Shown piece after piece: positions 4,711 to 64,000 of a stretch of 64,000 bases of DNA (the stretch's first letter is position 1; each line of letters begins with the position of its first letter). The notes beneath the pieces are model-generated. The model worked only from the letters and a program-made list of their open reading frames with translations, did not search any database and was not told the DNA's origin. This stretch comes from Dichotomocladium elegans. Lineage: Eukaryota; Mucoromycota; Mucoromycetes; Mucorales; Lichtheimiaceae. Location of the stretch: assembly GCA_025716815.1 (NCBI GenBank), contig JAIXMN010000004.1, positions 1,550,001 through 1,614,000 on the forward strand, written 5' to 3'. A program made the translations under genes and the position numbers.

Positions 4711-5928
4711 ATGAGCGATACCGACGAAGAACCACGCGACTTCTCCAGTTTGCTGCACAAATCACGGTACCAATGATCTACATGCGTAAATAAATGCAAA
4801 CTAATGACATTGCCGAATCGAAGTCATGTACGCAGTAAAGACAATGTGCCAAATGAATCCAAGGATCAGATCGACGCCCTTTCTGCATCCCGTGATGCGC
4901 TTTTTATGCTAATTGGCGAAGAGCGCCATGCAAGCGCCAAGAATATCTGCAAGGGCGTCCTCGACCAAGTCACAGGTCTCACGCATCTCACGCATGCACG
5001 CGGTACTCATTTGCGTGTAATGGGCCATTCGGATCGTGGCCAAATTGTACTCTATCCCGAAGAAGCGGCCTGGCTACTGAATATGCGCCTCTTGGACGTC
5101 AGCATATCGGACAGTGGAGACCGCCAAGCTGATCTAAGCGATTATTTTGATTTGATGTTCTGTAGTGTTGATGGTTGGATTTCATTCGAAAAATATCAGG
5201 CAAGAAATATAGAAACGAAAGAGATTTTATGCTAACTTTGATAGAAATTAAAGGTATATGCCTATCTCCGTCGACTTGGTTATATTGTTCAGAGAGCAAA
5301 ACCGCCGCGTATAGTTGAAACAAGTAGCATACTTCAAAAAGGCCGGAATATTGTCCATGTTTTGGTCAATTTCTTATATTCCATCCTCTACAAGCTTTTT
5401 GGGACAAGGCATATAGGACATTGGAGTTCTCGTAAGAAATCAGAGAAAAAATCAAAAGAGCAGTGCCATAGTCAGGAGCTAGAAGTAACGGTTTTATTTT
5501 TGTAGCGACGTCCGTACTCCAGATTATCCCGAGTAGCCCACAGTATAAGCCCTTTACAAGCTCTTGCCAAAAATCGCATATCCATTGGGATGTTTATAAG
5601 CCGAATCCACAATGGAAAAAAAGGGATCCCGGTATTCCTGATTTCCGAATAGTGGTTTCCAGGTAACATATAAGATGTCGTGGTTATCGCAAAGCAGAAT
5701 CTCAAACAATACAGTGCCAAGGATGCCGCGCCTACGCTTGGAACATATCAACGAATCTTTGGCCAATTGGACCAGCTTCCTCGTCCGTCACAGTTTCCAT
5801 ACGTGCGCATCAGAAACACGGCATCACCCGAAGATGCATTAACGTTTTTAATGGCTGTAGTTGACGATACGGAGGGCATTGGATTTTTACGTATTACAGG
5901 CGATAACGTTGTCGATTTGACCCTGTAG
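4711..5928 (+). CDS. SEN54: tRNA-splicing endonuclease subunit Sen54
   Basis: Five exons in consistent phase: 4711-4766, 4824-5199, 5254-5431, 5506-5662 and 5715-5928, giving 326 residues. Sen54 is a structural subunit of the heterotetrameric endonuclease that cuts introns from nuclear pre-tRNAs. The N-terminal domain shows RGTHLRVMGHSDRGQIVLYPEEAAWLL and, across intron 2, FEKYQ joined to VYAYLRRLGYIVQR, a hallmark of the family. The C-terminal part has LQIIPSS, WKKRDPGIPDFRIVV and a final block around YVRIRN. The ATG at 4711 begins MSDTDEEPRDFSSLL and is joined through a 57-nt intron with branch-like CTAAT. Intron 2 (5200-5253) starts with GC rather than GT, follows CAG and has a GCTAAC branch site. 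Family identification is firm; the exon 3 boundary is less so. Confidence 0.88.
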
Positions 5929-6916
5929 AAAAGAAATAAAGCGTTACTACAACGGGAACGTTCAAAAAGATTTGAAGCAAAAGTCGCCATTACATTTAGT
6001 AGTTCCAAGAGCAACGCTCCCGGGCAAACCGATCATGGCAGTAGGCGAGGTCAATAGGTCTACGGTCACCAACAATCCTACCGATCTTGTTCTTACTCTG
6101 CTATCCTTTTCATGATAATACTCATTTCTGCTGCTCCGTGAGTATTTCGTTCATTCTTCCTTCCTTCATCACTGGCAATCGTTTTATAGTTATCGTTGCT
6201 GAAAAGTTTGCAGAGGGCGCGATTAATATTCATGGTATTATTCTCAGCGAAATTGCGAGAGCGCGCATTAAGGTTAGCAGCGCACTATACACAGTACGCC
6301 ATTACGTACTGATGTATCCATCCTGATCTCGAGGACGGCACTGTATATGGAGGCCATGTATCTAAATAATACCGTAGGTACTGGGCGCAAATACTGCGGA
6401 TACATGCATACCATACATCGCAAGTATGCAAGCATACTGACGTATTAAAGTGCCATAAAAGATATGCCATTCTCTATGTCGCATCTTCGGTTATTTCCCT
6501 TACTTCTATGCTTTATCCCCTTTCTGCCTTCAACATTGTCCATCATGTCGCATCTCCTCCGTCTCTTTCTACGAATGGGTTTCGCTACTGCCAATACAGC
6601 TTCATCCTGTTTTATCTTGGCACGCACTGAAAACAAAAGGCTAAGCTCCGAATGCAGACGCATGATAGAAGGGAAAGCGTCTAAGGTACGCTTACTCCCC
6701 AGGCCGCGGAGCATCTGAAGATAGTAAATAAATTAGCCGGGAGTCGTTTTGTCCAGCCAGCAAACTTTTTTTTTCTTCACCCAAGTCACGCGGGGTCTGT
6801 CGGGCTTCACCCTGGTTAGCGACCAGCAAAACCCACCACCCCCCGGCCAAATACCGTCACCCACGCGCACAAATTCTCTGTCACCTTTTTCTCTCCTTTG
6901 AGAAATAAATATAGCA
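5929..6916. other. Intergenic region before ATP2
   Basis: About 1 kb between SEN54 and ATP2. Two overlapping open frames lie at 6445-6718; the minus-strand one would encode a basic 89-residue protein beginning MLRGLGSKRTLD, divergent from ATP2, but it has no known motif. The last 200 bases, with pyrimidine-rich tracts, probably contain the ATP2 promoter and leader. No RNA gene was seen. Confidence 0.4.
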
Positions 6917-8668
<1,752 letters not shown>

Positions 8669-46921: not shown

Positions 46922-47177
46922 GACGGAACGCGTTTAAGGGAGAGAGAACAAGAAGAATTTGTGTCACTTGCTTAAAAAATAGTATTTACAGTCATTTCAA
47001 CAATGATGTCGACTGATTCAAAAATAAAGTCGTGTCACGTGCCATGAACTTCGTTTACTTTTACTTGTCGCTTAGTAATTAAGCAATAAGCCTTGGCACT
47101 TTTATTTTTATAAAAGAAGGCGATTTTGAAGTAGTTTTTTTCCGGTTTCTTTTTCCGGTTTACAACAGACATTCAGA
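46922..47177. other. Region between CLPTM1 gene and transposon relic
   Basis: About 250 bp, AT-rich. It would contain the CLPTM1-family promoter and possibly the left end of the adjacent Tc1/mariner relic. No terminal inverted repeat could be recognised by eye. Confidence 0.35.
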
Positions 47178-48365
47178 ATGAATGTGCAATTTCTTTATGA
47201 AGATGGACAAGGACACGTTTTTGATGAGAACGGTGTTGAGCCTATGGATTTTGTTGTTGACGAGGAGTTATTCGCTATCGAAACACTAAGTTGTCGTACT
47301 CAATTCCTAATGAATAAACCTCTGGAAAGTCCTTCTATGTAATCCTGTAATACATCCAGTTACTAATGTAAGGAACAATGAAGACGTTGATATGGAGTTA
47401 TGCAATAAGTGACGTTATACACTTTACTCTGATGAAGACAAGACGAGATTTTTTCAGCAAATGTTTGAATCCTTCTGCTGCTGCGAGACAATTAGGTATT
47501 CATATCCGAGCAGCACAGAGATGGGTCAAACGTTATTACGATGACCCTGAAAGCATCTTTGAGAAGAAGAAAAAGCCAGGTAGACGTCGTATTCTTGCGG
47601 AGGAGCATAAGCAGTTTCTTTTAAATTGAAGTGGCAGAAATTTTAACGCAAAACTTTGTGGATCTTAATGTTTCTCGTAGCACAATTTATAACTTCATGG
47701 CAACTGAGTGTAGTTTATCTGTTAAGCAGGCACAATTCCAGCCTGTAGAAAGAAATAGCGAAGAAAAGATTCAACAAAGGTACGATTGGGTACAAAAGTG
47801 GCAGCAAACTGACATGGACTTTACAACAAATTGCGTCTTTCTGGATGAATCAGCTTTTCACATTCATTTGAAACGAGGTATGGCCTGGTCAAAGAAGGGA
47901 ACTCCAGCAATAGTTACAGTACCTACAACTAAAGCGAATGCAACATCGATCTTAGGTGCCATATCTGTCACTGGCTTAATTAATGTTAGTTTGAGAGTTC
48001 CAAAACGTATTAAAAAGAGAAAGGTTGGACGCGAAGCTGATGGTTATAGTATAGGAACAGTGACAGGGCATTATCTTGTTATGGATAATGCTCCAAACCA
48101 TAGCTCAATTGATATAGGAAAGTATATTCACTCTCGAGGATATCGCTGCGTTTATCTTCCTCCATATTTCCTGAACTAAATCCAATTGAGCAGTTCTGGT
48201 CAGTTATCAAGAGTAAAGTTAAGCGGAATAAGTTTTTGGAAAAGGAATCGCTAATGACAAGAATCAGTGAGGCATGCGATAATTTATATATGAGTGACTT
48301 CAAAGGCTTTGTAACTCATTCTGCTAAATGTTTCGCTATATGCCTCAATAAAGAGAAGTTACAAG
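47178..48365 (+). mobile_element. Tc1/mariner transposon relic (copy 3), best preserved
   Basis: The broken transposase starts MNVQFLYEDGQGHVFDENG. A TGA interrupts it before RYTLYSDEDKTRFF, a frameshift precedes the helix-turn-helix SAAARQLGIHIRAAQRWV, and another stop lies near 47,630. The catalytic region is then nearly intact: KQAQFQPVERNS, the first acidic motif CVFLDESAFH, HLKRGMAWSKKGTP, the second motif VMDNAPNH, and PYF-frameshift-LNPIEQFWSVIKSK with the final Glu. The gap between the second Asp and the Glu is 34 residues if the missing base is allowed for, the DD34E spacing of Tc1-like elements. Several lesions make it inactive. It ends against the left edge of the giant palindromic element. 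Confidence 0.82.
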
Positions 48366-48593
48366 GTTGAATCCAGTGCAAAGTGGGCCACCTGGCCACT
48401 CTTTTCTTTTCAAACCAGCGTAAAGAGGGTTGCCTAACCTTGGTTATTTTATTTTTTGATCTGTGGAAGATCTCCTACTTGTAAATGAAATGGTACTGAG
48501 GATAAGGGTGAAGAGATATACATGATAGGAGTAGCAGACTTTTTTTTGCTGGTTGATGTGGTGGCTACAGTGCTGTTGCAGCTGCTGCAATAA

Positions 48594-49712
48594 CTATCGC
48601 GATCGCTTTGCACATTCTCTCCGACATCGAAATTTGTTGAGGATCTTGGTGTTCTTGAGCAAGTCATAACGAGAATATACTTCAACCTTATGACCAATAT
48701 CCACTACCACTTCTCGTATGGACTTATTCAAAGATATGAATAACCTGATGTCGTCAGGATTGGTCGACAATCCGGCATAGTCAATTACCACAAGGCGAAT
48801 TTGTCGAGCGGATTTTGTGATCTTGCTGATTAAGTCTTGTGTATTACCAGAGCAATCGTCGAAAGTATATGGTGGAGTTGTTGCATCCCGTTCGGCAATT
48901 GGGTCGTCGGCAGAAGTGTTGTAAGACACAAATACATCTTCACATAAGAGCTTCGTCTTCATCTTGTAGATTTGGAGATTTACTAGCTTCTTTTTGGTTT
49001 TGTCATGTTCATTGGTATTTGATTTTCGTACATAACCGATAGTACATTTGGTGGCCATTGACGATTTGACCAGTGACCTATATTCCTGAATATTTGAAAG
49101 ATCATCCCAAGTAAAATCTAATCAAAATAAGAAGAATATTTTTAATAAAAAATAGATAGATACTTTCCGGGCATTACCTCTGTAAACTTTTTTGACGACA
49201 TTGAGCAAACGGCCACGTTTTCTTTTATTATTAGATTGCTTTCGAATAGTCGTACTCCATCTGCCATCTTTTGACATCCAGGCGGAAAGGTCAGCTGACC
49301 TGACAGTATCCTTTGGAATATAAGCTGAAACAAGGTCATGGACTTCAGTTTCCGAAAGAAAATGCTCTTCAGTTATGCCTGGGATGGGTGTGGAAGGCAT
49401 AATCTTAGCCACAAGATCAAGAACTGCTGATCGTGATGGTGGTATGGAAACAATAAAGGATTCACTACTGTTGCTATCGTCGCATTGTTGTTCTTGTTCG
49501 GTATTCTGTGGGAGACGCTGGTATCTCCAAGGCTCCAAGTTCACTTTCTTTGTTGACATGGCAACTGCAACGGTGGGATCGCCATTGACTAACGTAACAG
49601 GTTCCAAACCAGCATCTTTAAGTTGTTGTAATGTTGAAAGTTGATTCTCCATAGTGATTTCGAGTCCATAAATCGAACAAACAGCATCAGCTGCAGATAA
49701 TATGATTGTCAT
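48594..49712 (-). CDS. Resolvase/serine-recombinase-like protein, left copy
   Basis: Two exons, 49712-49178 and 49117-48594, with a 60-nt GTAATG...GATTAG intron, give 352 residues. The N-terminal half has no known domain (MTIILSAADAVCSIYGLEI; an acidic QEQQCDDSN patch; a basic KQSNNKRKRGRLLNVVKKV segment that could bind DNA). After the intron, DFTWDDLSNIQEYRSLVKSS leads into CTIGYVRKSNT, which resembles the YxRxS catalytic strand of serine recombinases, then VFVSYNTSADDPIAERD and RLVVIDYAGLSTNPDD, where classical enzymes have the DRLxR motif; here the arginine is absent. So it is a divergent or degenerate relative. The start codon lies about 40 bp from array A, whose units would form its promoter region. 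The resolvase relation is by motif impression only. Confidence 0.6.
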
Positions 49713-49749
49713 AGTTGGTAAAAAAAGTGGTAAAAAAGTGGTAAAAAAA

Positions 49750-50125
49750 AAGAAGAACAGTGGCCAGGTGGCCATTTTATCTTGGGCAAAAAAAGGAGAG
49801 ACCCATTTTACGCTAGTCAAAAAGAAGAGAGAGTGGCCAGGTGGTCATTTTACCCTGGTAAAAAAAAATAGAGAGAGTGGCCAGGTGGCCATTTTACGCT
49901 AGTCAAAAAAAGAGAGAGTGGCCAGGCGGCCATTTTACACTAGTCAAAAAGAAGAGAGAGCGGCCAGGTGGCCATTTTACCCTAGTAAAAAAAAATAGGG
50001 TGGCCAGGTGGCCATTTTACACTGGTAAAAAAAAGAGAGAGTGGCCAGGCGGCCATTTTATTACACTAGTCAAAAAGAAGAGAGAGTGGCGAGGTGGCCA
50101 TTTTACCCTAGTCAAAAAAAAATAT
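49750..50125 (-). repeat. Short dyad array A, left
   Basis: About eight or nine units of roughly 42 bp. On the plus strand each has TGGCCA, core GG, then TGGCCA (some GGCGGCCA), followed by TTTTAC and a CTAGT-type word. Read on the minus strand the unit aligns with the array B unit, so array A is inverted relative to the neighbouring array B. It ends about 40 bp from the start codon of the resolvase-like gene. Short Arg/Trp/Pro-rich open frames across it are repeat translations, not genes. Confidence 0.85.
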
Positions 50126-50136
50126 ATGTGAAAATT

Positions 50137-50808
50137 TTATTGATATGGAATATATTTCAAATCATAGTCATTGGGAGCCTCACGTTTAGAATGGCAATTT
50201 TCCTGAGACCAATACAAATACTCCCTTGTACCAGGTCTTTTGGCGCGTACCACAACTCCAAATATATCGCTCACTTCTACCACAACGTATCTTCTTGTGC
50301 TGCCATCCGATCTTGAATAGTTCCACGAATGCAACTAGTTTCTCGCAACTTCGGGAGTCTTTACTTCATAAATAGCTCTGCTTGAAGATATATTTGATGT
50401 TGCCAAAGTTTCGGAGCGTCCCCGGCTTAACAGCAGCTTTTGCTTTGCTCGCGTCCACCAAAATATGCAGCCTGACGTAAGACTCTCAACTTGTGCCTCC
50501 ATATACGATCTTCTCTTTTGAACAGTCGACTACCAGTTTCTACTAATTACGACTCGTCAATACTGACACCATTATATGACTTATTCTGCCATGCCCAGAA
50601 GTTTTTCGGTTAACTTTAAACCGTAAATAAATGATGGTGGCTTCTCCAAATGGACCCCAAATTTCGGGACTGATACAATTCATTTTCGATCAATTTTTCA
50701 CCGAAGATACTCCTTGTTCATAGTCTGTATCGATATCTGAGCAATCGCCTGACGTTCCCGTCTTCGTTTTCGTTTTCGTTTTCGTTTTCGTACAGCAGCT
50801 AATTCCAC
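50137..50808 (-). pseudogene. Decayed arm gene, left copy
   Basis: Mirror of 61,861-62,532. The minus strand reads from a basic segment (KRKRKRKRRRERQAIAQ), through broken frames containing PEIWGPFGEATIIYL, to a final open piece of 65 codons (HSWNYSRSDGSTRRYVVVEV, REYLYWSQENCHS). An in-frame TAG separates that piece from an upstream run of about 60 codons. There is no consistent splice path, so this appears to be a dead gene or a gene with unrecognised introns. The family is unknown. Confidence 0.45.
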
Positions 50809-50813
50809 TACTA

Positions 50814-50842
50814 TGGTGCATTTCATTTATAATAGCCACAAA
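50814..50842 (+). repeat. Left terminal inverted repeat of the transposon
   Basis: 29 bp, complementary without mismatch to 53,549-53,577. Preceded by the TA target duplication. Confidence 0.92.
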
Positions 50843-51389
50843 AAATCAAATTTTTTAAATGCTGATAAAAAATTATTGAGGCAGTATTTCATAATTCTAA
50901 TCTGATAACATTGTTCTCCTTGCGTTATAGATTAAATCTATTGGACCAGAATTGTAGTATTGCCCTTTGTTAAAAAGTTATGGAGGTTCAAAAATCGGTA
51001 TAAAGTGCTTGGAAGGGTGGGTTTTCAAGGAAATTGAAACACACTACGGAGTTTGTAACTCAATAGCGGAGATGAAATTGCCTTGCTTGGGCTCTGTATA
51101 AGTCGAGAGCAACCCGGTTATATGCTTTTCCATGACAACCGGAACATATATTACCCGTACAATGATTGTTCTACATATATCAGTTTCCTAACAGCAGTTT
51201 CCATAATATTTTAATGATACAACATGGTAAAAGCACTCTTTAAGAACCAATAGATGTATCTAAAAATATTGACGAAGGAATATAAACTACCTGAGGAGAT
51301 ATTAAGCTTATGCGGCTGACTGAAATAATATGTGGAGATCTTGTCACGGGCCTGAAAAAATCTTCGTAGTTCCTTATCACTATCATATC

Positions 51390-53486
51390 ATGGCACCGTT
51401 ATCCAAACGTCAAAAGCTTTTGAAGCAGAGACAACGAAATGAAACAGGGCAATTGGCTCCTCAGCCATTTCCTGTTGGAGAGACCGAGATGGTAGAGGAT
51501 CTGATCCCAGATGTTGAAGATTGGGATGTTTTGGGGCTTTCTGGAGATGCAGTCGCTGCTGCTGCTGCCCTCCCATTGGTGTGGAATGAGAAAGCCGATA
51601 GCCACCTGCGAGGCACATATTCCAAGGACTCTCGGACAACTATCTGGCGCCATAGAAAGGAGATGGAAATCGCCGCAAGCATGTCGCAGAAGCTTTCCGC
51701 TTTCGGTTTTACCCGCCAGCAACGTCAGACGAACCAAGACGATCGATATGAGGAAGAGCTTATTGCTGGAGCTATCAATAGGCTGGAAGAGCTTATAAGA
51801 CCTCGAATTTCAGCATCCAATGCCGGAGATTCCATCAGCCCTTTCCAGTTGTGTAAGCTTGAAGCAGTACACAGGTACCTTGTGTATCGTCTTGCTGGTA
51901 AGAAAGCAATTGCTGCGTCGCAGGACGCTGCCAAAGATATCTGGCATACACCCTCGCAAGATTACCGCCCCAAGGTTATCCGTCACTGGGCAAAAGAATT
52001 TCTTCAATTTGGGATTGTATCATCTCACCGCCAAGGAATACACAGCAAGAGGATTTCGGTTTTGTCTGATGAGCACCTCTCGGACAACATCTGCAAGTGG
52101 ATTCGTGAACAGTTACCTGACAAGCGAAATATCATTAGTATATTGAAGTTTGTCAATGAATCAGCAATTCCAGATGTATTTGGTGTACCTGGAAGTGTGA
52201 GTGAAACAACCCTTTGGCGATACATGAACGAATGGGGCTTCTTGTTTCGGCGTAACACCAAAGACGTCTATTACGACGGCCATGAAAGGGAAGATGTCGT
52301 TGTGTACTGTAAGGAATGGTCACGACGCATGACGGCCTACCGGACAATGACAGAACACTTCGAAGGGGAATTGATGGACGAAGTTATACCACCAATTCTT
52401 GCACCCGGAGAAAAGATGCTGGTGATGGTAACTCATGATGAGTCGACCTTCTATGCCAATGATGGCAAGCAAGTTCTGTGGCTGGCAGCCGGCGAAACTG
52501 TAATGCGGAATAAGTGTCCTGGCATGTCGATTATGGTCAGTGAATTCCAGTGTCCATGTCATGGAACAATGAGACATGGAGATCTTATCTCCCGACAATT
52601 CTTCGAAGCTGGCGCTGGGCGTGAGGGATACTGGGCCAGTGAACATATGTTGCACCAACTGCAAATCACCGTCATCCCGTTATTTGAACTATTGCATCCT
52701 GGTTGTAGAGCCCTGTTCTTGTTTGACCAGAGTAGCAATCACAATGCCTTTGCTGCAGATGCTCTTTTGGTTCAAAGGATGACAAAATCTGAGAAACGCA
52801 TCGAAGAAGGCGAAAAGTACCGATTTCGGAATGGCTATTTCGTTGCAACAGGTCATGACGGTGCGCCAATGCATGTTCCTCAGAGCATGTACATAAAACG
52901 ACATGAGAACATTAAGAAGTGTAAACACGGCCATACGATAGTCACCTCACAGAAGAAAGAAGTAGAATACTTCAAAGGAATTGAAAGGATTCTGAAAGAG
53001 CGTGGACTTTGGTTTGATAAAGACCCCCACCGTCCCGACAAAGTATGGAGAATGGAGTGCAAAAACGATGCGGCGGACGATGCAAAATGTTGCGCAAAAC
53101 ATTTGCTTGCAGCACAGCCTGATTTCACAGCGCAGCGGACGGCATTGCAGGAAGCAGTGGAGGATAGTGGCCATATATTTGAGCTTTATCCAAAATTCCA
53201 TTGTGAATGCAATTGGATTGAACGCTATTGGAGCGCTGCAAAGCGTGAAGCTCGAGCACGGTGCGACTATTCTTTCAAGAGTCTAAAAGAACATCTCCCG
53301 AGCTTCCTTGACTCTGTTTCTCCTCCAAACCAGACTCCCACAACAATCCGCCGATACTACAATAAGGCTTGGCGCTATATTGAGGCTTATTCTAATGACA
53401 TGGATGCTAATGAGGCTGCAGAGCATGTTAGAAAGTTCTCAACTCGTATCTACAAGAGCCATCGTCGTGTTGGCTTACATGACTAG
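51390..53486 (+). CDS. DDE transposase (IS630-Tc1-mariner-related)
   Basis: One uninterrupted frame, 698 residues from the ATG at 51,390 (an in-frame ATG at 51,330 would add 20 less polar residues). The basic start APLSKRQKLLKQRQRN suggests nuclear import. A helical DNA-binding region (about 95-270, with PKVIRHWAKEF and SETTLWRYMNEWGFLFRR) precedes the catalytic core. Probable catalytic acids are D350 in THDESTFYAND, D446 in FLFDQSSNH and E611 in CECNWIERYW. The last acids are 164 residues apart because of a large insertion containing a Cys/His pair (KCKHGHT), unlike the 34 residues of Tc1. Relatives of this type are, from memory, abundant in fungal genomes. The gene fills the transposon between its terminal repeats. 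Confidence 0.88.
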   Translation: MAPLSKRQKLLKQRQRNETGQLAPQPFPVGETEMVEDLIPDVEDWDVLGLSGDAVAAAAALPLVWNEKADSHLRGTYSKDSRTTIWRHRKEMEIAASMSQKLSAFGFTRQQRQTNQDDRYEEELIAGAINRLEELIRPRISASNAGDSISPFQLCKLEAVHRYLVYRLAGKKAIAASQDAAKDIWHTPSQDYRPKVIRHWAKEFLQFGIVSSHRQGIHSKRISVLSDEHLSDNICKWIREQLPDKRNIISILKFVNESAIPDVFGVPGSVSETTLWRYMNEWGFLFRRNTKDVYYDGHEREDVVVYCKEWSRRMTAYRTMTEHFEGELMDEVIPPILAPGEKMLVMVTHDESTFYANDGKQVLWLAAGETVMRNKCPGMSIMVSEFQCPCHGTMRHGDLISRQFFEAGAGREGYWASEHMLHQLQITVIPLFELLHPGCRALFLFDQSSNHNAFAADALLVQRMTKSEKRIEEGEKYRFRNGYFVATGHDGAPMHVPQSMYIKRHENIKKCKHGHTIVTSQKKEVEYFKGIERILKERGLWFDKDPHRPDKVWRMECKNDAADDAKCCAKHLLAAQPDFTAQRTALQEAVEDSGHIFELYPKFHCECNWIERYWSAAKREARARCDYSFKSLKEHLPSFLDSVSPPNQTPTTIRRYYNKAWRYIEAYSNDMDANEAAEHVRKFSTRIYKSHRRVGLHD

Positions 53487-53548
53487 TATTAGACACATCC
53501 ATATATATATTATCTGCGTTTGAATATGAAAATTGAAACAAAATAAGG

Positions 53549-53577
53549 TTTGTGGCTATTATAAATGAAATGCACCA
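53549..53577 (-). repeat. Right terminal inverted repeat of the transposon
   Basis: 29 bp, reverse complement of 50,814-50,842; followed by TA and then by arm sequence that continues in the empty site of the right arm. Confidence 0.92.
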
Positions 53578-53619
53578 TACGTTACCGACATTCTTTCCTG
53601 GATATTTTCTCTTTTTTCC

Positions 53620-55672
53620 ACCAACTTAAAGTGGCCACCCAGCCACTTTCACTATTTTTTGCCAGCTTAAAGTGGCCACCCGGCCATTTTCGCTTTTTTT
53701 CCACCAGCTTAAAGTGGCCACCTGGCCATTTTCGTTTTTTTTCCACCAGCTTAAAGTGGCCACCTGGCCATTTTCACCTTTTTTTCCACCAGCTTAAAGT
53801 GGCCACCTGGCCATTTTCGCTTTTTTTTTTGCCAGCTTAAAGTGGCCACCTGGCCATTTTCGTTTTTTTTCCACCAGCTTAAAGTGGCCACCTGGCCATT
53901 TTCACCTCTTTTTCCACCAGCTTAAAGTGGCCACCCGGCCATTTTCACCTCTTTTTCCACCAGCTTAAAGTGGCCACCTGGCCATTTTCGCTTTTTTTTT
54001 TGCCAGCTTAAAGTGGCCACCTGGCCATTTTCGTTTTTTTTCCACCAGCTTAAAGTGGCCACCTGGCCATTTTCACCTCTTTTTCCACCAGCTTAAAGTG
54101 GCCACCTGGCCATTTTCGCTTTTTTTTTTGCCAGCTTAAAGTGGCCACCCGGCCATTTTCACCTCTTTTTCCACCAGCTTAAAGTGGCCACCCGGCCATT
54201 TTCACCTCTTTTTCCACCAGCTTAAAGTGGCCACCCGGCCATTTTCACCTCTTTTTCCACCAGCTTAAAGTGGCCACCTGGCCATTTTCACCTTTTTCTC
54301 CTCCAGCTTAAAGTGGCCACCTGGCCATTTTCGCTTTTTTTCCACCAGCTTAAAGTGGCCACCTGGCCATTTTCACCTCTTTTTCCACCAGCTTAAAGTG
54401 GCCACCCGGCCATTTTCGCTTTTTTTCCACCAGCTTAAAGTGGCCACCTGGCCATTTTCGCTTTTTTTCCACCAGCTTAAAGTGGCCACCTGGCCATTTT
54501 CGCTTTTTTTTTGCCAGCTTAAAGTGGCCACCTGGCCATTTTCACCTCTTTTTCCACCAGCTTAAAGTGGCCACCTGGCCATTTTCGCTTTTTTTCCACC
54601 AGCTTAAAGTGGCCACCTGGCCATTTTCACCTTTTTCTCCTCCAGCTTAAAGTGGCCACCTGGCCATTTTCGCTTTTTTTTCCACCAGCTTAAAGTGGCC
54701 ACCTGGCCATTTTCGTTTTTTTTCCACCAGCTTAAAGTGGCCACCTGGCCATTTTCGCTTTTTTTCCCACCAGCTTAAAGTGGCCACCTGGCCATTTTCG
54801 TTTTTTTTCCACCAGCTTAAAGTGGCCACCTGGCCATTTTCGCTTTTTTTTTTGCCAGCTTAAAGTGGCCACCCGGCCATTTTCACCTCTTTTTCCACCA
54901 GCTTAAAGTGGCCACCCGGCCATTTTCACCTCTTTTTCCACCAGCTTAAAGTGGCCACCTGGCCATTTTCACCTCTTTTTCCACCAGCTTAAAGTGGCCA
55001 CCTGGCCATTTTCACCTTTTTTTCCACCAGCTTAAAGTGGCCACCTGGCCATTTTCGCTTTTTTTTCCACCAGCTTAAAGTGGCCACCCGGCCATTTTCA
55101 CCTTTTTCTCCTCCAGCTTAAAGTGGCCACCCGGCCATTTTCACCTTTTTCTCCTCCAGCTTAAAGTGGCCACCTGGCCATTTTCACCTCTTTTTCCACC
55201 AGCTTAAAGTGGCCACCTGGCCATTTTCGCCTCTTTTTCCACCAGCTTAAAGTGGCCACCTGGCCATTTTCACCTCTTTTTCCACCAGCTTAAAGTGGCC
55301 ACCCGGCCATTTTCACCTCTTTTTCCACCAGCTTAAAGTGGCCACCTGGCCATTTTCACCTTTTTCTCCTCCAGCTTAAAGTGGCCACCTGGCCATTTTC
55401 GCTTTTTTTTCCACCAGCTTAAAGTGGCCAGGTGGCCATTTTCACCTCTTTTTTTTGCCAGCTTAAAATGGCCACCTGGCCATTTTCACCTTTTTTTCCA
55501 CCAGCTTAAAGTGGCCACCTGGCCATTTTCACCTCTTTTTTTTGCCAGCTTAAAATGGCCACCTGGCCATTTTCACCTCTTTTTCCACCAGCTTAAAGTG
55601 GCCACCTGGCCATTTTCGCTGATTTTTTGCTAGCTTAAAGTGGCCACCCGGCCATTTTCACCTTCGCTCAGC
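53620..55672 (+). repeat. Long dyad array B, left
   Basis: About 45-50 tandem units of roughly 43 bp. Consensus parts: CCACCAGCTT, then AAAGTGGCCA, core CC, TGGCCATTTT, then a C plus T-rich spacer. TGGCCA is itself a palindrome, so the unit is a near-perfect 10+10 dyad around a non-palindromic two-base core. Variants include GGCCACCCGGCCA, spacers with CACCTCTTTTT or CGCTTTTTTT, and a GCCAGCTT form. The unit at 55,421-55,440 has core GG instead of CC. The outermost unit (CACCCAGCCACTTTC) also ends the right array. Longer open frames across it are repeat translations, not genes. Confidence 0.93.
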
Positions 55673-58600
55673 AGCTTTGGATTTTCGTTCAAATAAAACT
55701 CAGTGTAGATAGAATGTTTTTATTGGTCAGATTTTAACGGTATGAGTGGAGAACCTTTCCGGCCACCGATAACCTTATTTATCGGTATTTTCCAGCCAAA
55801 AATGGCCATGTTTTTAAAAATCTCACCGGTAAACGCTCTACCGGTATATATAGCGACCAGTAAATCGAGCGCTGACTCTAATTACAAAGTATTGGTGCTA
55901 AGCTCGAACTAAATTCTACCAGATTTTGATGTGCTGCGTACATGATTTGGTCCCATTACAAGTTGCCGTCTGTATCCGCCATTTCATAGACTTTTTCTTC
56001 CAGGCTACTGCCAAAGAACATTCTGAGAGCACATTAACGGATATGGAAGAGTCTCTTCGACTATATCATATGGATTCTCGGATTTTCGAGCGTTGGTCAA
56101 AAGTAATTGTTATCCTATTACATTTCCAGACCAGCAATACTTATAAGCCGATATAGAGCAAAATGCGCTTTCCAAAAAACCATATGTGAGTAAATACTGT
56201 GGAGACATACGACGGTATGGCGCTGTAGCTGGGTATAGCACAAGTAGCTCAGAGCGACAACATCGGTATGATGCAAAGGCCCCAGCAAAACATGTGAATT
56301 TCAATAGCACCACTTATATCCATCAGGTTTGTACATGACATAAACATATATCAAGTGCACGAGTCCGAAATAACACAATACTATGCAATCAATGCCATAG
56401 CTCAGTACTTATATTTTTTACCGCGATCTTCTTGATGACCAATACTACCACTTGAAATCATTGGCCCAATCACCTAGTCAGACAGCAGCCTCCTCCTCTG
56501 AAAAGCAATTATATCCAACTTTCTCACTCCGTTCGTGTCGAAATAATGGTGCACCCATTTCTTTTAACGACTTGAAAAACCAGAAGGGAATGTTCAGGAG
56601 GTTGAAAACATTGTTGCGTACAGAGCTTGATTACCAGGATGGCCACATGTCATCTGTCGCTGTAAAAAATCTGCCACGGGTCGAAGACAAGGCAAGGTTG
56701 CAATCACCTTGCTCTCCGTCCTTTCGCTAAATATATTACCAAACGTAGATCATAGTGTACAATGCGCTAATGATCACTGCAGTAGACGTTGATGGCGATC
56801 AGTACTCATACACTATTCAGGGTTATCCTCAGTTTCGAGGTGTTGACCAGTTGTCAGAATATAACTGGGGGTAGTCTAGGTAGCAGGACTTGCGCTCGGA
56901 CAGAGGACAGGATAAGAGGAAGGTACGGACTAGGAACTGGAAGATAGCGGTAATGCTGGTAATGGAATAAAGTGGAAAGATCAGGAAGCTATTCTAAAAT
57001 CAACGCTAGTACTACTAACCAGAAGTATGCCAGATGGCAGATCAAAACAAGACAAGAAGAGAACAGGAAGCAAGTCAAGAGCTAGACTAAAGGGGTGGGT
57101 GTTAGGTACTTTCCATTACGCAGCATACACCAAGTCGGATAACTACCAGGAACAAGGCAGAGCCGGAGAGGCGCGATAAGACGGATCAGATACTTCGGGA
57201 TAAGAGCAGAAATGGTTTACAGGATAGGACCGAGGCTTGACCAGGACAAGGTAAGTGGTATTTGGTAATTGTGACAATAATCTGATGATATTTATTAGGA
57301 CAAACTATGACAGTATTTATACTAGCTATGATGTGTAGGACCAGAGTTCAGATAGCCTTGGACGTTGAGATACTGACTGGAAATTAATAAATACAGTCGA
57401 TAGATTGGGGAATTGGCCGGGAAGCAAATTAATGCAATGAGGGTGTCCATTGCATGAATGAAAATGCACGACCCTAAATGATTCCCATTTTGGTCATGAC
57501 ACCAGTTTGACTTTGTGCAGCTGCAAAATAGTCATGATAAAGATATTTTTGCCCAAGTACATCTCTTGTTTAAAGCTCGAAGAGTTGTCGACGGTCAGAG
57601 AATGGCGCCCACGGACTTCTGCTATGTCGAACTTTTCAGACACGCCGACAAACGGCATGCAAGCGGATTACAAGTTTTACTGCCACCTGAAGTCGGACAT
57701 ACTGCTTTTGTTGTTTTCCCAGTGTCGCGCATCAAGATGCAAGTACATATCGTTCCAGACTTTTCTACAGCGCTTAACGATGACCAAAAAGGCCCATATG
57801 AGCAGTATCTCATATATCGCGACGCGAATATTTTGCAATGGGCCTATGGACAGAGCAATCTTCCAGAGTTAGGGGAGGAATATGTGGGATGAACGGACAG
57901 GGAAGATGAGAGCGACAATGGGAATTAATGCGCGGAGGAAAGCGATGTTGAAGCCAAGACGAAGATAGCAGCAAGAATAATGTGAATGCTCCTGCAGACG
58001 GCGAGGATAATGACGACAGCGGAATGTTTGAATAAATACTGTTATCCAGAAGATATAGATGATGATTTCAGATACAGAGACTAGACCTGTAAGTTGTTCA
58101 AATGCATCGCAGGGCTGGCGATAAAGGTTATCGCTCTGCAATAGCTTTACAAAGGCACTGCGGTACAAAACGAAATTATTGCTGGGTTCTAAATGACAGG
58201 CAGAGTACTGAATGGCCTACAGGACACCAAAAGACGTGCAGTGCACCAAAATGTCTGCACAGTTTCATATATAGCAGTGCACACAGTCTTCAGTGATTTA
58301 TAAGGAACAGGATGATTGTCCAAAAAAATAGTAACCATGATTTTTAAAAACAGGATGATACTTACTGGATAAAAGTCTAGAAAGAAATCCAACGATATAC
58401 CCGATTGTACATACCCTGGTGTAGAGCCTTTATCTAGACCAATGCAAGCAATGTAAGCGAGCATTGGATGACCTCCCTGGCAAAAAAAAAAGTGGAAGTG
58501 GCCGGGTTGAGATGGATGGGTTAGAGAGAATGAAAAAAGACAACGAGAAAAATATCTTTGAGGTTGATGTTTATTCCTGAAAATAAAATAACTCTTATAA

Positions 58601-59261
58601 TAATTCTATTAGAACGGCGATGTAAGTGCTTAACCCTGTTAGGACGTAACAGATGAGAGCATTCTCTTTTCATTGTCCTCTTCAAGACCAGTGATGGATC
58701 CTGGCTAAAGGAAGTGTCGCATAGGTGATTACGGATTAAAGGATCCATGACGCCGCGTTATAACCAGATCCATTTCCACAGTCTTTTTCCCTCTATTTTT
58801 CTCCCACTGGGTTTTTATGAGGTTTTACCGACGTGAGGATGGTCTGAGAGGAACAAGGACACATAATCTATGATAGAGGGCACCGATACACACACAAGCA
58901 CCTTATCTTTAATAGTGCTACCATCTCCGAGTACCCATGTAAGACGGAGTATCCAGTTGACTTAATTAGGACCTCTTCATAAATCATATAAATAGTAGAT
59001 ATACGTGTAGCAATGGAGGATCTTAATTCCGATTTCATTCGAATAAAAGACATCCACGAGTCTCATCATATCCTAACTGTCCAACTTAAAAAACAACTAA
59101 AACACCACAGGAAGTACCTTTGATAGGTGCGATTGTCCTGTCATGCAAGCAGATATGAAAATATCAGTCCCTGAACATCAATGTGTCAAATTCATCATTT
59201 GTCTTAGTTTCAGGATATCGGCGATAGTGAAGTGAAACCGGCTAAGTTCTCTAACACAGAT
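55673..59261. other. Spacer of the palindrome
   Basis: About 3.6 kb unique to the centre. It holds the transposase-like remnants at 55,926-57,892. The left part (55,740-55,860) has small inverted words around ACCGGTA and a lone TGGCCA. From 57,900 to 59,260 only short frames are present, with no recognisable gene. A stem-loop-rich AT segment follows, then array B right. Confidence 0.5.
55926..57892 (+). pseudogene. Remnant of a Plavaka/KDZ-like transposase
   Basis: Two well-separated plus-strand fragments recall the C-terminal half of large CACTA-related transposases (Plavaka/KDZ type) of fungi. At about 55,960-56,100 the sequence AVCIRHFIDFFFQATAKEHS with LTDMEESLRLYH fits the region preceding the conserved Phe-Pro-Lys-His motif. 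At 57,510-57,890 IFAQVHLLFKARRV, DFCYVELFRHADKRHASG and MQVHIVPDFSTAL fit the C-terminal domain with its IVP motif. Between them lies a stop-riddled stretch with one open piece (56,452-56,730). The family is assigned from memory of its pattern; the gene is clearly broken. Confidence 0.45.
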
Positions 59262-61830
59262 CAATGTCCACCACACGGGTGGCCACTTTAACCTGGTGGG
59301 AAAAAAAGCGAAATTTGCCGGGTGGCCACTTTACGCTGGTGGAAAAAAAGGTGAAAATGGCCGGGTGGCCACTTTAAGCTGGTGGAAAAAGAGGTGAAAA
59401 TGGCCAGGTGGCCACTTTAAGCTGGCAAAAAAAAAAGCGAAAATGGCCAGGTGGCCACTTTAAGCTGGTGGAAAAAAAACGAAAATGGCCAGGTGGCCAC
59501 TTTAAGCTGGTGGGAAAAAAAGCGAAAATGGCCAGGTGGCCACTTTAAGCTGGTGGAAAAAAAACGAAAATGGCCAGGTGGCCACTTTAAGCTGGTGGAA
59601 AAAAAAGCGAAAATGGCCAGGTGGCCACTTTAAGCTGGAGGAGAAAAAGGTGAAAATGGCCAGGTGGCCACTTTAAGCTGGTGGAAAAAAAGCGAAAATG
59701 GCCAGGTGGCCACTTTAAGCTGGTGGAAAAAGAGGTGAAAATGGCCAGGTGGCCACTTTTAGCTGGTGGGAAAAAAAGCGAAAATGGCCAGGTGGCCACT
59801 TTAAGCTGGCAAAAAAAAAAAAGCGAAAATGGCCAGGTGGCCACTTTAAGCTGGTGGAAAAAAAAGCGAAAATGGCCAGGTGGCCACTTTAAGCTGGAGG
59901 AGAAAAAGGTGAAAATGGCCAGGTGGCCACTTTAAGCTGGTGGAAAAAGAGGTGAAAATGGCCGGGTGGCCACTTTAAGCTGGTGGAAAAAGAGGTGAAA
60001 ATGGCCAGGTGGCCACTTTAAGCTGGTGGAAAAAAAGCGAAAATGGCCAGGTGGCCACTTTAAGCTGGTGGAAAAAGAGGTGAAAATGGCCAGGTGGCCA
60101 CTTTAAGCTGGAGGAGAAAAAGGTGAAAATGGCCAGGTGGCCACTTTAAGCTGGTGGAAAAAGAGGTGAAAATGGCCAGGTGGCCACTTTAAGCTGGTGG
60201 AAAAAAAAGCGAAAATGGCCAGGTGGCCACTTTAAGCTGGAGGAGAAAAAGGTGAAAATGGCCAGGTGGCCACTTTAAGCTGGCAAAAAAAAGCGAAAAT
60301 GGCCAGGTGGCCACTTTAAGCTGGTGGAAAAAGAGGTGAAAATGGCCGGGTGGCCACTTTAAGCTGGTGGAAAAAGAGGTGAAAATGGCCGGGTGGCCAC
60401 TTTAAGCTGGCAAAAAAAAGCGAAAATGGCCAGGTGGCCACTTTAAGCTGGTGGAAAAAAAGCGAAAATGGCCAGGTGGCCACTTTAAGCTGGTGGAAAA
60501 AGAGGTGAAAATGGCCAGGTGGCCACTTTAAGCTGGTGGAAAAAAAGCGAAAATGGCCAGGTGGCCACTTTAAGCTGGTGGAAAAAGAGGTGAAAATGGC
60601 CGGGTGGCCACTTTAAGCTGGTGGAAAAAGAGGTGAAAATGGCCGGGTGGCCACTTTAAGCTGGCAAAAAAAAAGCGAAAATGGCCAGGTGGCCACTTTA
60701 AGCTGGTGGAAAAAAAGCGAAAATGGCCAGGTGGCCACTTTAAGCTGGTGGAAAAAGAGGTGAAAATGGCCGGGTGGCCACTTTAAGCTGGTGGAAAAAG
60801 AGGTGAAAATGGCCAGGTGGCCACTTTAAGCTGGTGGAAAAAAAGCGAAAATGGCCAGGTGGCCACTTTAAGCTGGTGGAAAAAGAGGTGAAAATGGCCA
60901 GGTGGCCACTTTAAGCTGGTGGAAAAAGAGGTGAAAATGGCCGGGTGGCCACTTTAAGCTGGTGGAAAAAGAGGTGAAAATGGCCAGGTGGCCACTTTAA
61001 GCTGGTGGAAAAAAAGCGAAAATGGCCAGGTGGCCACTTTAAGCTGGTGGAAAAAGAGGTGAAAATGGCCAGGTGGCCACTTTAAGCTGGTGGAAAAAGA
61101 GGTGAAAATGGCCGGGTGGCCACTTTAAGCTGGTGGAAAAAGAGGTGAAAATGGCCGGGTGGCCACTTTAAGCTGGCAAAAAAAAAGCGAAAATGGCCAG
61201 GTGGCCACTTTAAGCTGGTGGAAAAAAAGCGAAAATGGCCAGGTGGCCACTTTAAGCTGGTGGAAAAAGAGGTGAAAATGGCCGGGTGGCCACTTTAAGC
61301 TGGTGGAAAAAGAGGTGAAAATGGCCAGGTGGCCACTTTAAGCTGGTGGAAAAAAAGCGAAAATGGCCAGGTGGCCACTTTAAGCTGGTGGAAAAAGAGG
61401 TGAAAATGGCCAGGTGGCCACTTTAAGCTGGTGGAAAAAGAGGTGAAAATGGCCGGGTGGCCACTTTAAGCTGGTGGAAAAAGAGGTGAAAATGGCCGGG
61501 TGGCCACTTTAAGCTGGCAAAAAAAAAAGCGAAAATGGCCAGGTGGCCACTTTAAGCTGGAGGAGAAAAAGGTGAAAATGGCCAGGTGGCCACTTTAAGC
61601 TGGTGGAAAAAGAGGTGAAAATGGCCGGGTGGCCACTTTAAGCTGGTGGAAAAAGAGGTGAAAATGGCCAGGTGGCCACTTTAAGCTGGTGGAAAAAAAA
61701 CGAAAATGGCCAGGTGGCCACTTTAAGCTGGTGGAAAAAAAGCGAAAATGGCCGGGTGGCCACTTTAAGCTGGCAAAAAATAGTGAAAGTGGCTGGGTGG
61801 CCACTTTAAGTTGGTGGAAAAAAGAGAAAA
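59262..61830 (-). repeat. Long dyad array B, right
   Basis: About 58-60 units of the same 43-bp repeat in reverse orientation. The first variants from the outer end (unit with CCCAGCCA, then the GCCAGCTT and CGCTTTTTTT forms) occur in the same order as in the left array; further in the order diverges and the array is about 500 bp longer. The inner end (59,262-59,340) is eroded: units with CCACACGGGTGG and TTGCCGGGTGG. Confidence 0.93.
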
Positions 61831-61860
61831 TATCCAGGAAAGAATGTCGGTAACGTAGTA

Positions 61861-62532
61861 GTGGAATTAGCTGCTGTACGAAAACGAAAACGAAAACGAA
61901 AACGAAGACGGGAACGTCAGGCGATTGCTCAGATATCGATACAGACTATGAACAAGGAGTATCTTCGGTGAAAAATTGATCGAAAATGAATTGTATCAGT
62001 CCCGAAATTTGGGGTCCATTTGGAGAAGCCACCATCATTTATTTACGGTTTAAAGTTAACCGAAAAACTTCTGGGCATGGCAGAATAAGTCATATAATGG
62101 TGTCAGTATTGACGAGTCGTAATTAGTAGAAACTGGTAGTCGACTGTTCAAAAGAGAAGATCGTATATGGAGGCACAAGTTGAGAGTCCTACGTCAGGCT
62201 GCATATTTTGGTGGACGCGAGCAAAGCAAAAGCTGCTGTTAAGCCGGGGACGCTCCGAAACTTTGGCAACATCAAATATATCTTCAAGCAGAGCTATTTA
62301 TGAAGTAAAGACTCCCGAAGTTGCGAGAAACTAGTTGCATTCGTGGAACTATTCAAGATCGGATGGCAGCACAAGAAGATACGTTGTGGTAGAAGTGAGC
62401 GATATATTTGGAGTTGTGGTACGCGCCAAAAGACCTGGTACAAGGGAGTATTTGTATTGGTCTCAGGAAAATTGCCATTCTAAACGTGAGGCTCCCAATG
62501 ACTATGATTTGAAATATATTCCATATCAATAA
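61861..62532 (+). pseudogene. Decayed arm gene, right copy
   Basis: Same content as the left copy, in reverse complement. It begins with VELAAVRKRKRKRKRRRERQ, a strong nuclear-localisation-like basic run encoded by a repeated CGAAAA word. An in-frame TAG at 62,332-62,334 splits the last 125 codons. The lesions are the same in both arms, so the gene decayed before the arms were duplicated or has since been homogenised. Confidence 0.45.
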
Positions 62533-62544
62533 AATTTTCACATA

Positions 62545-62920
62545 TATTTTTTTTTGACTAGGGTAAAATGGCCACCTCGCCACTCTCTCTTCTTTTTGAC
62601 TAGTGTAATAAAATGGCCGCCTGGCCACTCTCTCTTTTTTTTACCAGTGTAAAATGGCCACCTGGCCACCCTATTTTTTTTTACTAGGGTAAAATGGCCA
62701 CCTGGCCGCTCTCTCTTCTTTTTGACTAGTGTAAAATGGCCGCCTGGCCACTCTCTCTTTTTTTGACTAGCGTAAAATGGCCACCTGGCCACTCTCTCTA
62801 TTTTTTTTTACCAGGGTAAAATGACCACCTGGCCACTCTCTCTTCTTTTTGACTAGCGTAAAATGGGTCTCTCCTTTTTTTGCCCAAGATAAAATGGCCA
62901 CCTGGCCACTGTTCTTCTTT
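62545..62920 (+). repeat. Short dyad array A, right
   Basis: Reverse complement of the left array A with the same number and order of units, lying immediately upstream of the right resolvase-like gene. Unit variants (for example the AATAAAATGGCCGCC unit near 62,606) occur at the mirrored positions of the left array. Confidence 0.85.
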
Positions 62921-62956
62921 TTTTTTACCACTTTTTTACCACTTTTTTTACCAACT

Positions 62957-64000
62957 ATGACAATCATATTATCTGCAGCTGATGCTGCTTGTTCGATTTA
63001 TGGACTCGAAATCACTATGGAGAATCAACTTTCAACATTACAACAACTTAAAGATGCTGGTTTGGAACCTGTTACGTTAGTCAATGGCGATCCCACCGTT
63101 GCAGTTGCCATGTCAACAAAGAAAGTGAACTTGGAGCCTTGGAGATACCAGCGTCTCCCACAGAATACCGAACAAGAACAACAATGCGACGATAGCAACA
63201 GTAGTGAATCCTTTATTGTTTCCATACCACCATCACGATCAGCAGTTCTTGATCTTGTGGCTAAGATTATGCCTTCCACACCCATCCCAGGCATAACTGA
63301 AGAGCATTTTCTTTCGGAAACTGAAGTCCATGACCTTGTTTCAGCTTATATTCCAAAGGATACTGTCAGGTCAGCTGACCTTTCCGCCTGGATGTCAAAA
63401 GATGGCAGATGGAGTACGACTATTCGAAAGCAATCTAATAATAAAAGAAAACGTGGCCGTTTGCTCAATGTCGTCAAAAAAGTTTACAGAGGTAATGCCC
63501 GGAAAGTATCTATCTATTTTTTATTAAAAATATTCTTCTTATTTTGATTAGATTTTACTTGGGATGATCTTTCAAATATTCAGGAATATAGGTCACTGGT
63601 CAAATCGTCAATGGCCACCAAATGTACTATCGGTTATGTACGAAAATCAAATACCAATGAACATGACAAAACCAAAAAGAAGCTAGTAAATCTCCAAATC
63701 TACAAGATGAAGACGAAGCTCTTATGTGAAGATGTATTTGTGTCTTACAACACTTCTGCCGACGACCCAATTGCCGAACGGGATGCAACAACTCCACCAT
63801 ATACTTTCGACGATTGCTCTGGTAATACACAAGACTTAATCAGCAAGATCACAAAATCCGCTCGACAAATTCGCCTTGTGGTAATTGACTATGCCGGATT
63901 GTCGACCAATCCTGACGACATCAGGTTATTCATATCTTTGAATAAGTCCATACGAGAAGTGGTAGTGGATATTGGTCATAAGGTTGAAGTATATTCTCGT
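62957..64000 (+). CDS. Resolvase/serine-recombinase-like protein, right copy (3' end outside window)
   Basis: Mirror of the left copy: exon 1 62957-63491, intron 63492-63551, exon 2 from 63552 to the window edge; by symmetry the stop would be at about 64,075. The protein is identical to the left copy over the visible part except Ala for Val near residue 12 (SAADAACSIYG). Both copies are uninterrupted, so both could be expressed, each reading outward from its array A. Near identity suggests recent duplication or gene conversion between arms. Confidence 0.6.

Follow-up and report, generated by a model that had tools for sequence, protein, structure and literature searches.

The palindrome spanning positions 46,989-65,713 (18,725 bp) in Dichotomocladium elegans is probably a single palindromic transposon of the IS630/Tc1-mariner group that moved as a whole, whose arms are kept alike and whose accessory protein possibly binds the tandem arrays of the element. 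Positions are those of the window, a stretch of 64,000 nt (assembly GCA_025716815.1, contig JAIXMN010000004.1, positions 1,550,001-1,614,000, forward strand). The contig is named C57 here; the palindrome lies at C57:1596-1617 kb and its right end is located beyond the window. We read the family as a foldback-like Tc1 group with the transposase gene inside the arms; no palindromic Tc1 element of this kind was met in literature searches covering titles and abstract openings.

The element starts with TA followed by CAGTCATTTCA and finishes with TGAAATGACTG followed by TA. Its right terminus, CAGTCATTTCAGAAAGTGAAGTCG at 65713, lies outside the window. The sequences flanking the two ends are unrelated, which together with the TA and terminal inverted repeat (TIR) at both extremities makes the palindrome look like one Tc1/mariner (IS630-type) insertion. 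About 50 bp are missing at the left end, immediately inside the first 11 bp, and are kept at the right end. The first-pass annotation had placed the outer limits at 48,380 and about 64,290. These are wrong because the arms run on through the transposase gene to 46,989 and 65,713. The arms, previously estimated as at least 4.2 kb, are thus about 5.9 kb long on the left, excluding a later insertion, and about 6.4 kb on the right. Boundaries shared between copies and a target duplication, suggested earlier as the mark of one mobile unit, do exist at these other coordinates in the form of the TIR and TA. The components of the element are:

46987..47031, + strand: left end, TA target site at 46987-46988 followed by the TIR
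47172..48361, + strand: Tc1/IS630-type DDE_3 transposase pseudogene of the left arm, with matches in several frames and internal stops
48379..48440, + strand: lone array-like unit just beyond the transposase, array core at 48385
48594..49712, - strand: accessory gene of the left arm, intact, 352 aa, two exons and a 60-nt intron
49760..50121, - strand: array A of the left arm, units of 41-42 bp, lying immediately upstream of the accessory gene
50125..50811, + strand: arm stretch of unassigned origin (a dead gene in the first-pass annotation), mirrored at 61856-62544
50814..53577, + strand: later insertion of 2,764 bp with a 27-bp TIR and TA duplication
53612..55664, - strand: array B of the left arm, 43-bp units, 48.0 copies
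55665..59275, + strand: central spacer, mostly nested repeats and insertions
55879-56852 and 57501-58316: repeat E1 in the spacer, interrupted by an LTR-like repeat of 650 bp (56852-57501)
58708-59114: 400-bp repeat in the spacer
59278..61823, + strand: array B of the right arm, 43-bp units, 59.7 copies
61856..62544, - strand: right-arm mirror of the 50125-50813 stretch
62549..62866, + strand: array A of the right arm
62957..64000, + strand: accessory gene of the right arm, likewise intact, running beyond the window to about 64075
C57:1614308-1615497, outside the window: mirror transposase copy of the right arm, 100% identical in nucleotides to the left copy over 1,190 bp

The remainder of the spacer is about 770 bp of other sequence. 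The later insertion holds an ORF of 718 aa (51330-53486) and its empty site is preserved in the right arm. Elsewhere, the stretch 50125-50811 has a single diverged relative, located at C29:597991 (70% identity over part of it).

The internal description of the palindrome given by the first-pass annotation was confirmed: inverted arms surround a 3.6-kb spacer, paired coordinates add up to 112,669 and both arms have the gene first, then array A, the dead stretch and array B. The outer 2.1 kb, described as almost free of substitutions, corresponds to a 2,145-bp block inside the window that the repeat finder reports as 100% complementary; comparison base by base of 48,300-50,813 with its mirror reveals mismatches at 49,681 and 50,480. 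Over the longer alignment of 47,071-50,813 with 65,598-61,856, which extends past the window, 3 mismatches occur in 3,743 bp (99.92% identity). A chance origin of the palindrome is excluded. Long perfect palindromes are a known type of artefact, and an assembly or amplification chimera was therefore weighed; its probability is close to negligible. Both arms stop at transposon ends with unrelated flanks, a private 2.76-kb insertion is carried by one arm only and the copy number of array B is not the same in the two arms (48.0 against 59.7), making a simple assembly chimera very unlikely. Moreover, several independent loci share the architecture. No second copy of the window element itself was found.

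The window transposase pseudogene matches two relatives. One is the transposase of a 7,528-bp locus in C31, open and identical in both arms (DDE_3, E 5.9e-30), and the other belongs to a 3,246-bp element with a single transposase and ends of the same type (C68:916175-919420, termed here the C68 monomer; DDE_3, E 3e-28). The transposase ORF has a DD34E spacing, as counted by eye, and dN/dS is 0.142 for two of the three comparisons made and saturated for the other. A short TIR with a CAGT-type start is common to both ends, and TA is found on both sides of the window element, the C31 locus, C68p (C68:675918-681361) and the C68 monomer. DDE_3 enzyme, TA target and CAGT-starting TIRs are all features of Tc1/mariner (IS630) transposons. 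Members of this group are typically small and have a single gene and short TIRs. In contrast, the inverted arms described here are kilobases long and enclose the transposase, sometimes with an accessory gene and arrays. The proposal of a single mobile unit is supported. Rather than the resolvase-like protein, the enzyme that mobilises it is most likely the DDE transposase of Tc1 type, whose gene falls beyond the limits first drawn. Elements moved by tyrosine recombinases, such as Starships and Cryptons, are disfavoured as relatives, the unit carrying a DDE transposase, TIRs and TA instead.

It is envisaged that the TIRs expanded over the whole transposase gene and, in the window copy, also over the accessory gene and two arrays, so that most of the element became self-complementary. 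A transposase of the Tc1 type would then act on the outermost ends and move the entire palindrome by cut and paste. Both window transposases being dead, mobilisation of this copy would need to occur in trans.

Transposase copies facing inwards in inverted arms are found at eight loci, the window and seven others of which six are convincing: C31, C49, C68p, C68q (C68:1482-1487 kb), C43p (C43:190912), C43r (C43:320-332 kb) and C35p (C35:1588745). The loci at C51, C112:998 kb, C53, C31:20 kb and C68:1.07 Mb were left out of the inspection. Both TIRs with TA are present at three of the eight (window, C31 and C68p, the latter a 5,444-bp element of equivalent layout). A single end is seen at C49, with its first base altered, C43p and C35p; no TIR ends were found at C68q or C43r. 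A related element occupies different sites in C37 and C49, with identity beginning at the TIR (one end each); the C37 comparison covers 2355-5522 and 6301-7300, one half only. The TIR and TA at both ends, the recurrent architecture and this relative at two sites all favour the foldback-type, single mobile unit among the origins first suggested.

Another of these origins, two monomers inserted head to head that lost their inner ends and form a palindrome by accident, would find its building block in the C68 monomer. C43r, at 320.8-331.6 kb, which has neither arrays nor accessory gene, may itself consist of two separate insertions. Three outward-facing pairs of transposases, known from position and orientation only, also exist. 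As a general account it is nevertheless quite improbable. The two transposases of each locus are 97.1-100% identical and are mutual closest relatives at eight of eight loci, while the nearest transposase at another locus has at most 86.2% identity. Among 96 merged transposase copies, the 10 neighbouring pairs less than 18 kb apart comprise 7 inward, 3 outward and none in the same direction. The pattern scan detected no inner TIR in the window copy, although a decayed one could escape it, and the same TIR and TA are common to both outer ends. The eight loci suggest that the palindrome, with a transposase gene in each arm, is a form that cut-and-paste Tc1 elements can take repeatedly. This form is expected to be fragile when replicated and to supply fungal RNA interference with plentiful double-stranded RNA.

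The accessory gene was matched at four of the eight two-transposase loci (window, C31, C68p and C49) and was absent from each of the other four tested (C43p, C35p, C68q and C43r); hence it is not a constant part of the element. At 11 of 13 loci examined, a transposase of the clade adjoins an accessory gene. The accessory-gene loci at C68 (916 kb), C112, C79, C35 and C1 are not full palindromes in the inspected sequence. Predicted proteins of Rhizopus (P0012) and Phycomyces (P0015) are consistent with the splicing of the gene, and the protein occurs in several families of Mucorales, where the named records listed are hypothetical or uncharacterized proteins; it now gains a genomic context and a candidate role.

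Its qualification as recombinase-like holds for a short motif but not for placement in the resolvase family by profiles. The carboxyl-terminal part features GYVRKS and DYAGLS motifs, the former resembling the short GYxRxS motif of serine recombinases (resolvase/invertase, IS607). Y-x-R-x-S, which in serine recombinases stands at the N-terminus of the domain, is found in 12 of the 20 rows reaching this region in the 36-row protein alignment (A1), window protein included, and at all nine genomic loci listed. The serine recombinase active-site motif D-R-L-x-R, seen in the resolvases compared, is replaced in the accessory protein by DYAGLS and variants. The Resolvase profile PF00239 gave one match among the 36 family members (E 0.032), not credible, and none in a search over the genome; an hhalign comparison with three resolvases was limited to 21 columns around GYVRKS (P 0.011, probability 3.9). 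The 352-aa protein had no match in Pfam, tyrosine recombinases included, no credible match in a PDB sequence search and no homologue in the viral and prokaryote contig collections searched. A match of 2 of the 36 members to NCBIfam SinI (2.5e-4) was taken as chance. Values of dN/dS for the accessory gene, 0.42-1.18 over short exons among C112, C35 and C79 and 0.49 over 45 codons between the window and C30, were left uninterpreted; three further comparisons are saturated.

Clear tandem arrays are present at five of the eight two-transposase loci, with units that mostly differ between loci. They occur at 10 of 16 clade loci; by comparison, 116,250 bp of other sequence contained one array. These arrays may be binding sites of the accessory protein, which might thereby aid expression, counteract silencing or assist synapsis of the ends. 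VANDAL elements of Arabidopsis belong to a different transposon superfamily. For the VANC anti-silencing system, a similar pairing of an element-coded accessory protein with family-specific noncoding tandem-repeat motifs is described (PMC5735166), a comparison drawn here from array conservation.

Binding of the accessory protein is the least certain step of the favoured reading because two loci, C43p and C68q, have inner arrays without a recognisable accessory gene. The transposase could instead be what binds the arrays, in line with proposals for the Galileo TIR repeats, leaving another role for the accessory protein; we hold this to be a real possibility, if somewhat less probable than its negation. 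Tandem repeats in foldback TIRs are discussed as secondary transposase-binding sites in two reports (PMC4079207, PMC3573991). A related element found in C44 and at C57:1663 kb, whose two copies share 2.75 kb at 98% identity, carries, roughly 1 kb beyond its transposase, a short 18-bp repeat in 3-5 copies and has no accessory match. This repeat and the four loci lacking the accessory gene add weight to transposase binding and take some from the main reading. On the other side, array A of the window is directly upstream of the accessory gene, an arrangement found likewise in the C68 monomer, and arrays flank or adjoin the gene in C31, C49, C112, C79 and C35.

Very long TIRs with internal tandem repeats are shared with the foldback elements FB, Galileo and Tetris of Drosophila, as described in PMC3573991 and PMC4079207. 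Galileo belongs to the P superfamily. The foldback form is described as a product of TIR elongation with loss of the transposase (PMC4079207, PMC3573991). Unlike in those elements, the transposase gene sits here inside the repeated arms, and the enzyme is DDE_3 rather than a P-superfamily transposase. Ciliate Tec, Thon and Sardine elements combine an IS630/Tc1 transposase with a recombinase-type second gene, Thon and Sardine having palindromic TIRs of ~700 and 425 bp, according to PMC3464196. The second gene of the ciliate elements codes for a tyrosine recombinase in that account (PMC3464196), whereas the one described here matches no family; the arms here extend to 6 kb.

The age of the arms was compared to that of the spacer. 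Repeat E1 of the window carries 21 private substitutions in 815 bp, as dated with three of the five other E1 copies. Arms as old as E1 would be expected to show 193 differences in the 3,743 bp that hold only three, so that the arms were probably homogenised or recopied; this clock would be weakened if the window E1 stems from an older E1 lineage, as it may. One arm would act as template for the other, by inter-arm gene conversion or by copying in post-excision repair. C49 and C37 give a star-like pattern, with 10, 12 and 12 differences shared over 2 kb, indicating that arm-to-arm conversion is not continuous there.

The arms could also have been copied recently by template switching in excision-gap repair, giving palindromes that are mostly dead ends and not mobile. 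Arms that appear far younger than the spacer and dead transposases identical between them would fit such an origin, which we judge somewhat unlikely. Against it, the two arms of C31 hold transposases that are open and identical, and the C49/C37 element is found at two sites (in C37 as one half). The C49 arms are no more alike than C49 is to C37, and thus were already similar when the element moved. A stronger form of the transposon reading takes the palindrome as the working form of the element, with transposase in both arms, arms rebuilt exactly at each transposition, a serine-recombinase-related accessory protein acting on the arrays (synapsis, inversion or a shield against silencing) and co-evolution of array and protein; so complete a scheme is unlikely. 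Alike arms next to older spacers and accessory genes next to locus-specific arrays provide natural experiments. RIP-like mutation was rejected as the source of the 21 E1 differences: C to T and G to A changes account for 10, and the remainder are mixed. The LTR-like repeat that splits E1 has 7 of its 9 changes of these two types and may display a RIP-like bias.

The palindrome of the window is a unit bounded by terminal inverted repeats (TIRs) and a TA target site. Its inverted arms had been recognised in the first-pass annotation, but the limits assigned there were incorrect. A 2,145-bp block inside the window is 100% complementary according to the repeat finder, which also gave hundreds of array matches. 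The arm match extends past the window, with 47,071-50,813 pairing to 65,598-61,856 (3,743 bp, 99.92%, 3 mismatches). Farther out it is broken by two indels, one of 1 bp and one longer, and reaches TTCAACAATGATGTCG at 46,996 and 65,652. The true ends, with TIR and TA, are localized at 46,989 and 65,713, the left one without about 50 bp, and the left and right flanks outside the TA are unrelated. The palindrome is 18,725 bp long, or 15,959 bp minus a later insertion and its extra TA.

Landmarks of the palindrome (window coordinates)
46,989: left end, TA followed by CAGTCATTTCA
48,385: single array-like unit, inward of the transposase pseudogene
50814-53577: later insertion, left arm only; 2,764 bp, 27-bp TIR, 718-aa ORF, TA duplicated
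65,713: right end, CAGTCATTTCAGAAAGTGAAGTCG in inward reading, with TA before it

The order from each end inward is a Tc1-type transposase pseudogene, the array-like unit, the accessory gene, tandem array A, a stretch with one diverged relative elsewhere, array B and the spacer. The accessory gene is oriented outward and array A sits directly upstream. The left-arm gene is intact (352 aa, 60-nt intron), its splice being consistent with Rhizopus and Phycomyces predicted proteins, and the right-arm gene has both exons open with a single V to A difference. The right arm is the empty site for the 2,764-bp insertion. The 718-aa ORF of this insertion codes perhaps an unusual large transposase. Its sole Pfam match is DDE_3, sub-threshold at E 0.013. 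The spacer contains the repeat E1 in two pieces split by a 650-bp LTR-like repeat, a 400-bp repeat, and about 770 bp left over. E1 has copies at five other places of the genome (96-97%). The LTR-like repeat has CCAGT on either side (edges judged by eye) and other copies, some paired about 5.4 kb apart.

The palindromic plan recurs in the genome, which was searched over 39.4 Mb in 122 contigs (C31, C68 and the like). The transposase of contig C31 gave at least 116 matches; transposase counts are lower bounds because 97 of 2,565 candidates were scored. The matches merge to at least 96 copies, of which 10 neighbouring pairs lie no more than 18 kb apart: seven inward, three outward and none in the same direction.

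Neighbouring transposase pairs
Inward: window
Inward: C31
Inward: C68 at 676 kb (C68p) and at 1.48 Mb (C68q)
Inward: C43 at 191 kb (C43p) and at 321 kb (C43r)
Inward: C35 at 1.58 Mb (C35p)
Outward, same clade: C53:8744-12898, C31:20236-22975, C68:1068183-1078045

Inclusion of C49 from its contig sequence brings the inward loci to eight. The accessory gene is matched in four of them (window, C31, C68p and C49), and searches of each of the two-transposase loci C43p, C35p, C68q and C43r gave no match. C43r is counted as doubtful because it has neither arrays nor accessory gene. Of the members seen, the palindrome at C31:604207-611734 (7.5 kb) is the best preserved: its two transposase genes are open and identical, and an accessory gene of several exons lies in the middle. 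Searched against the genome, the accessory protein gave 23 matches (E of 1 or less), grouped manually in 14 loci; C68p was recognised later as an additional one. A clade transposase is found near the accessory gene at 11 of 13 loci examined (C51 and C112:998 kb are outside this set), the exceptions being C30, with none within 20 kb, and C90, with none in the 3.1 kb covered. The accessory gene at C30:650143-650577 is solitary and decayed, with no transposase or array within 20 kb. A further palindrome, C57:1446135-1453656 (7.5 kb, 97.8%), lies 150 kb from that of the window on the same contig. It contains sequence weakly related to the N-terminal accessory region and, on a single side, a transposase piece; no TIR ends were found.

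Literature searches in open-licence papers found no Tc1 element with a transposase in both arms. The closest precedents are foldback elements with repeats within long TIRs (PMC4079207, PMC3573991), Tc1-type elements of ciliates, which have palindromic TIRs and a recombinase as second gene (PMC3464196), and VANC proteins, which have tandem-repeat targets (PMC5735166).

Tandem arrays (period of at least 10, at least 3.5 copies) are found in 10 of 16 loci versus one in a 116,250-bp control drawn from other parts of the genome. This control takes in C30, C43r, C44 and C57:1663 kb, and the one array in it is the 18-bp repeat at C57:1663 kb. The locus count includes short stretches (C1, C79b, C90, C37); the six loci below the threshold are C68p (2-3 copies only), C35p, C57b, C1, C79b and C90. 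Five of the eight two-transposase loci have arrays (window, C31, C49, C43p, C68q). The units are mostly unlike between loci.

Array units
Window: 41-43 bp, containing TGGCCAGGTGGCCA
C68: 34 bp
C31: 23 bp
C112, C79 and C35: 31 bp, common to these three
C37 and C49: 31-33 bp, common to both
C43p: 15-20 bp
C68q: 10 bp

Window arrays A and B have a common core, TGGCCAGGTGGCCAYTTTA, and different linkers. Allowing at most one mismatch, the core is confined to the arrays and the unit at 48,385 among the window parts checked. This pattern hints at a candidate protein-binding site; either the accessory protein or the transposase would bind the arrays.

Both TIRs with TA were found in the window, C31 (7,528 bp), C68p (5,444 bp) and a single-transposase element of C68 (3,246 bp). 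One end was found in C43p, C35p, C49 (first base T) and C37, and none was recognised in C68q and C43r. One element related to the window palindrome is present at two sites, C37 and C49: judged by eye, in a comparison covering one half of C37, identity begins at the TIR and the flanks are unrelated past a few bases. A dN/dS of 0.142 in two comparisons (a third was saturated) indicates past purifying selection on the DDE transposase clade. The whole palindrome would be mobilised as a unit, the window copy in trans.

A nucleotide tree of 21 transposase sequences places same-locus copies as sisters in 8/8 pairs; they are 97.1-100% identical, and the nearest other locus reaches at most 86.2%. The window copy of E1 carries 21 private substitutions over 815 bp, and three other copies (three of five compared) differ by 0-1; the window LTR-like repeat has 9 private substitutions versus two other copies. 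The arms show 3 differences in 3,743 bp versus 193 expected on the E1 clock, which argues that they were homogenised after E1 arrived, unless the window E1 is from an older lineage. One arm would be copied onto the other. The two C49 arms and C37 are related as a star (shared differences 10, 12 and 12 over 2,000 bp), indicating that the C49 arms were alike when the element moved and have diverged separately since. C44 and C57:1663 kb carry one and the same element (98.2% over 2,752 bp), which has a short 18-bp repeat in 3-5 copies, no long inverted arms in the sequence covered and no accessory match. The stretch common to both, C44:468172-470887, stops one base before an E1 repeat (C44:470888-472675). 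E1 may go with a different transposase element.

The label resolvase-like, initially given to the accessory gene, stems from its GYxRxS motif. Y-x-R-x-S is present in 12 of the 20 alignment rows reaching the region, the window among them, and in 9/9 genomic loci printed. DYAGLS and variants replace the resolvase DRLxR motif and profile tests for resolvase relationship fail. A Pfam search with the whole protein gave no match.

The best matches of the window proteins are from Mucorales. Accessory protein matches include Rhizopus, Radiomyces, Phycomyces, Halteromyces and Mucor, among others; Radiomyces and Phycomyces were checked to be Mucorales of different families. In each of five named species the top match has 77-89% identity and covers 79-100% of its length (Rhizopus microsporus 89, Radiomyces 85, Halteromyces 85, Phycomyces 83, Hesseltinella 77); another hit is at 93% and further named ones go down to 37%. 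Horizontal spread within Mucorales is possible and would fit these values, the comparison being with one host gene and no species in common: a BTB-domain host protein has 48-70% identity to eight named hits (Lichtheimia, Circinella, Syncephalastrum and Apophysomyces among others), in species other than those of the accessory hits. Likewise, the C31 transposase has 84-88% identity to its best matches among named records, from Rhizopus and Absidia.
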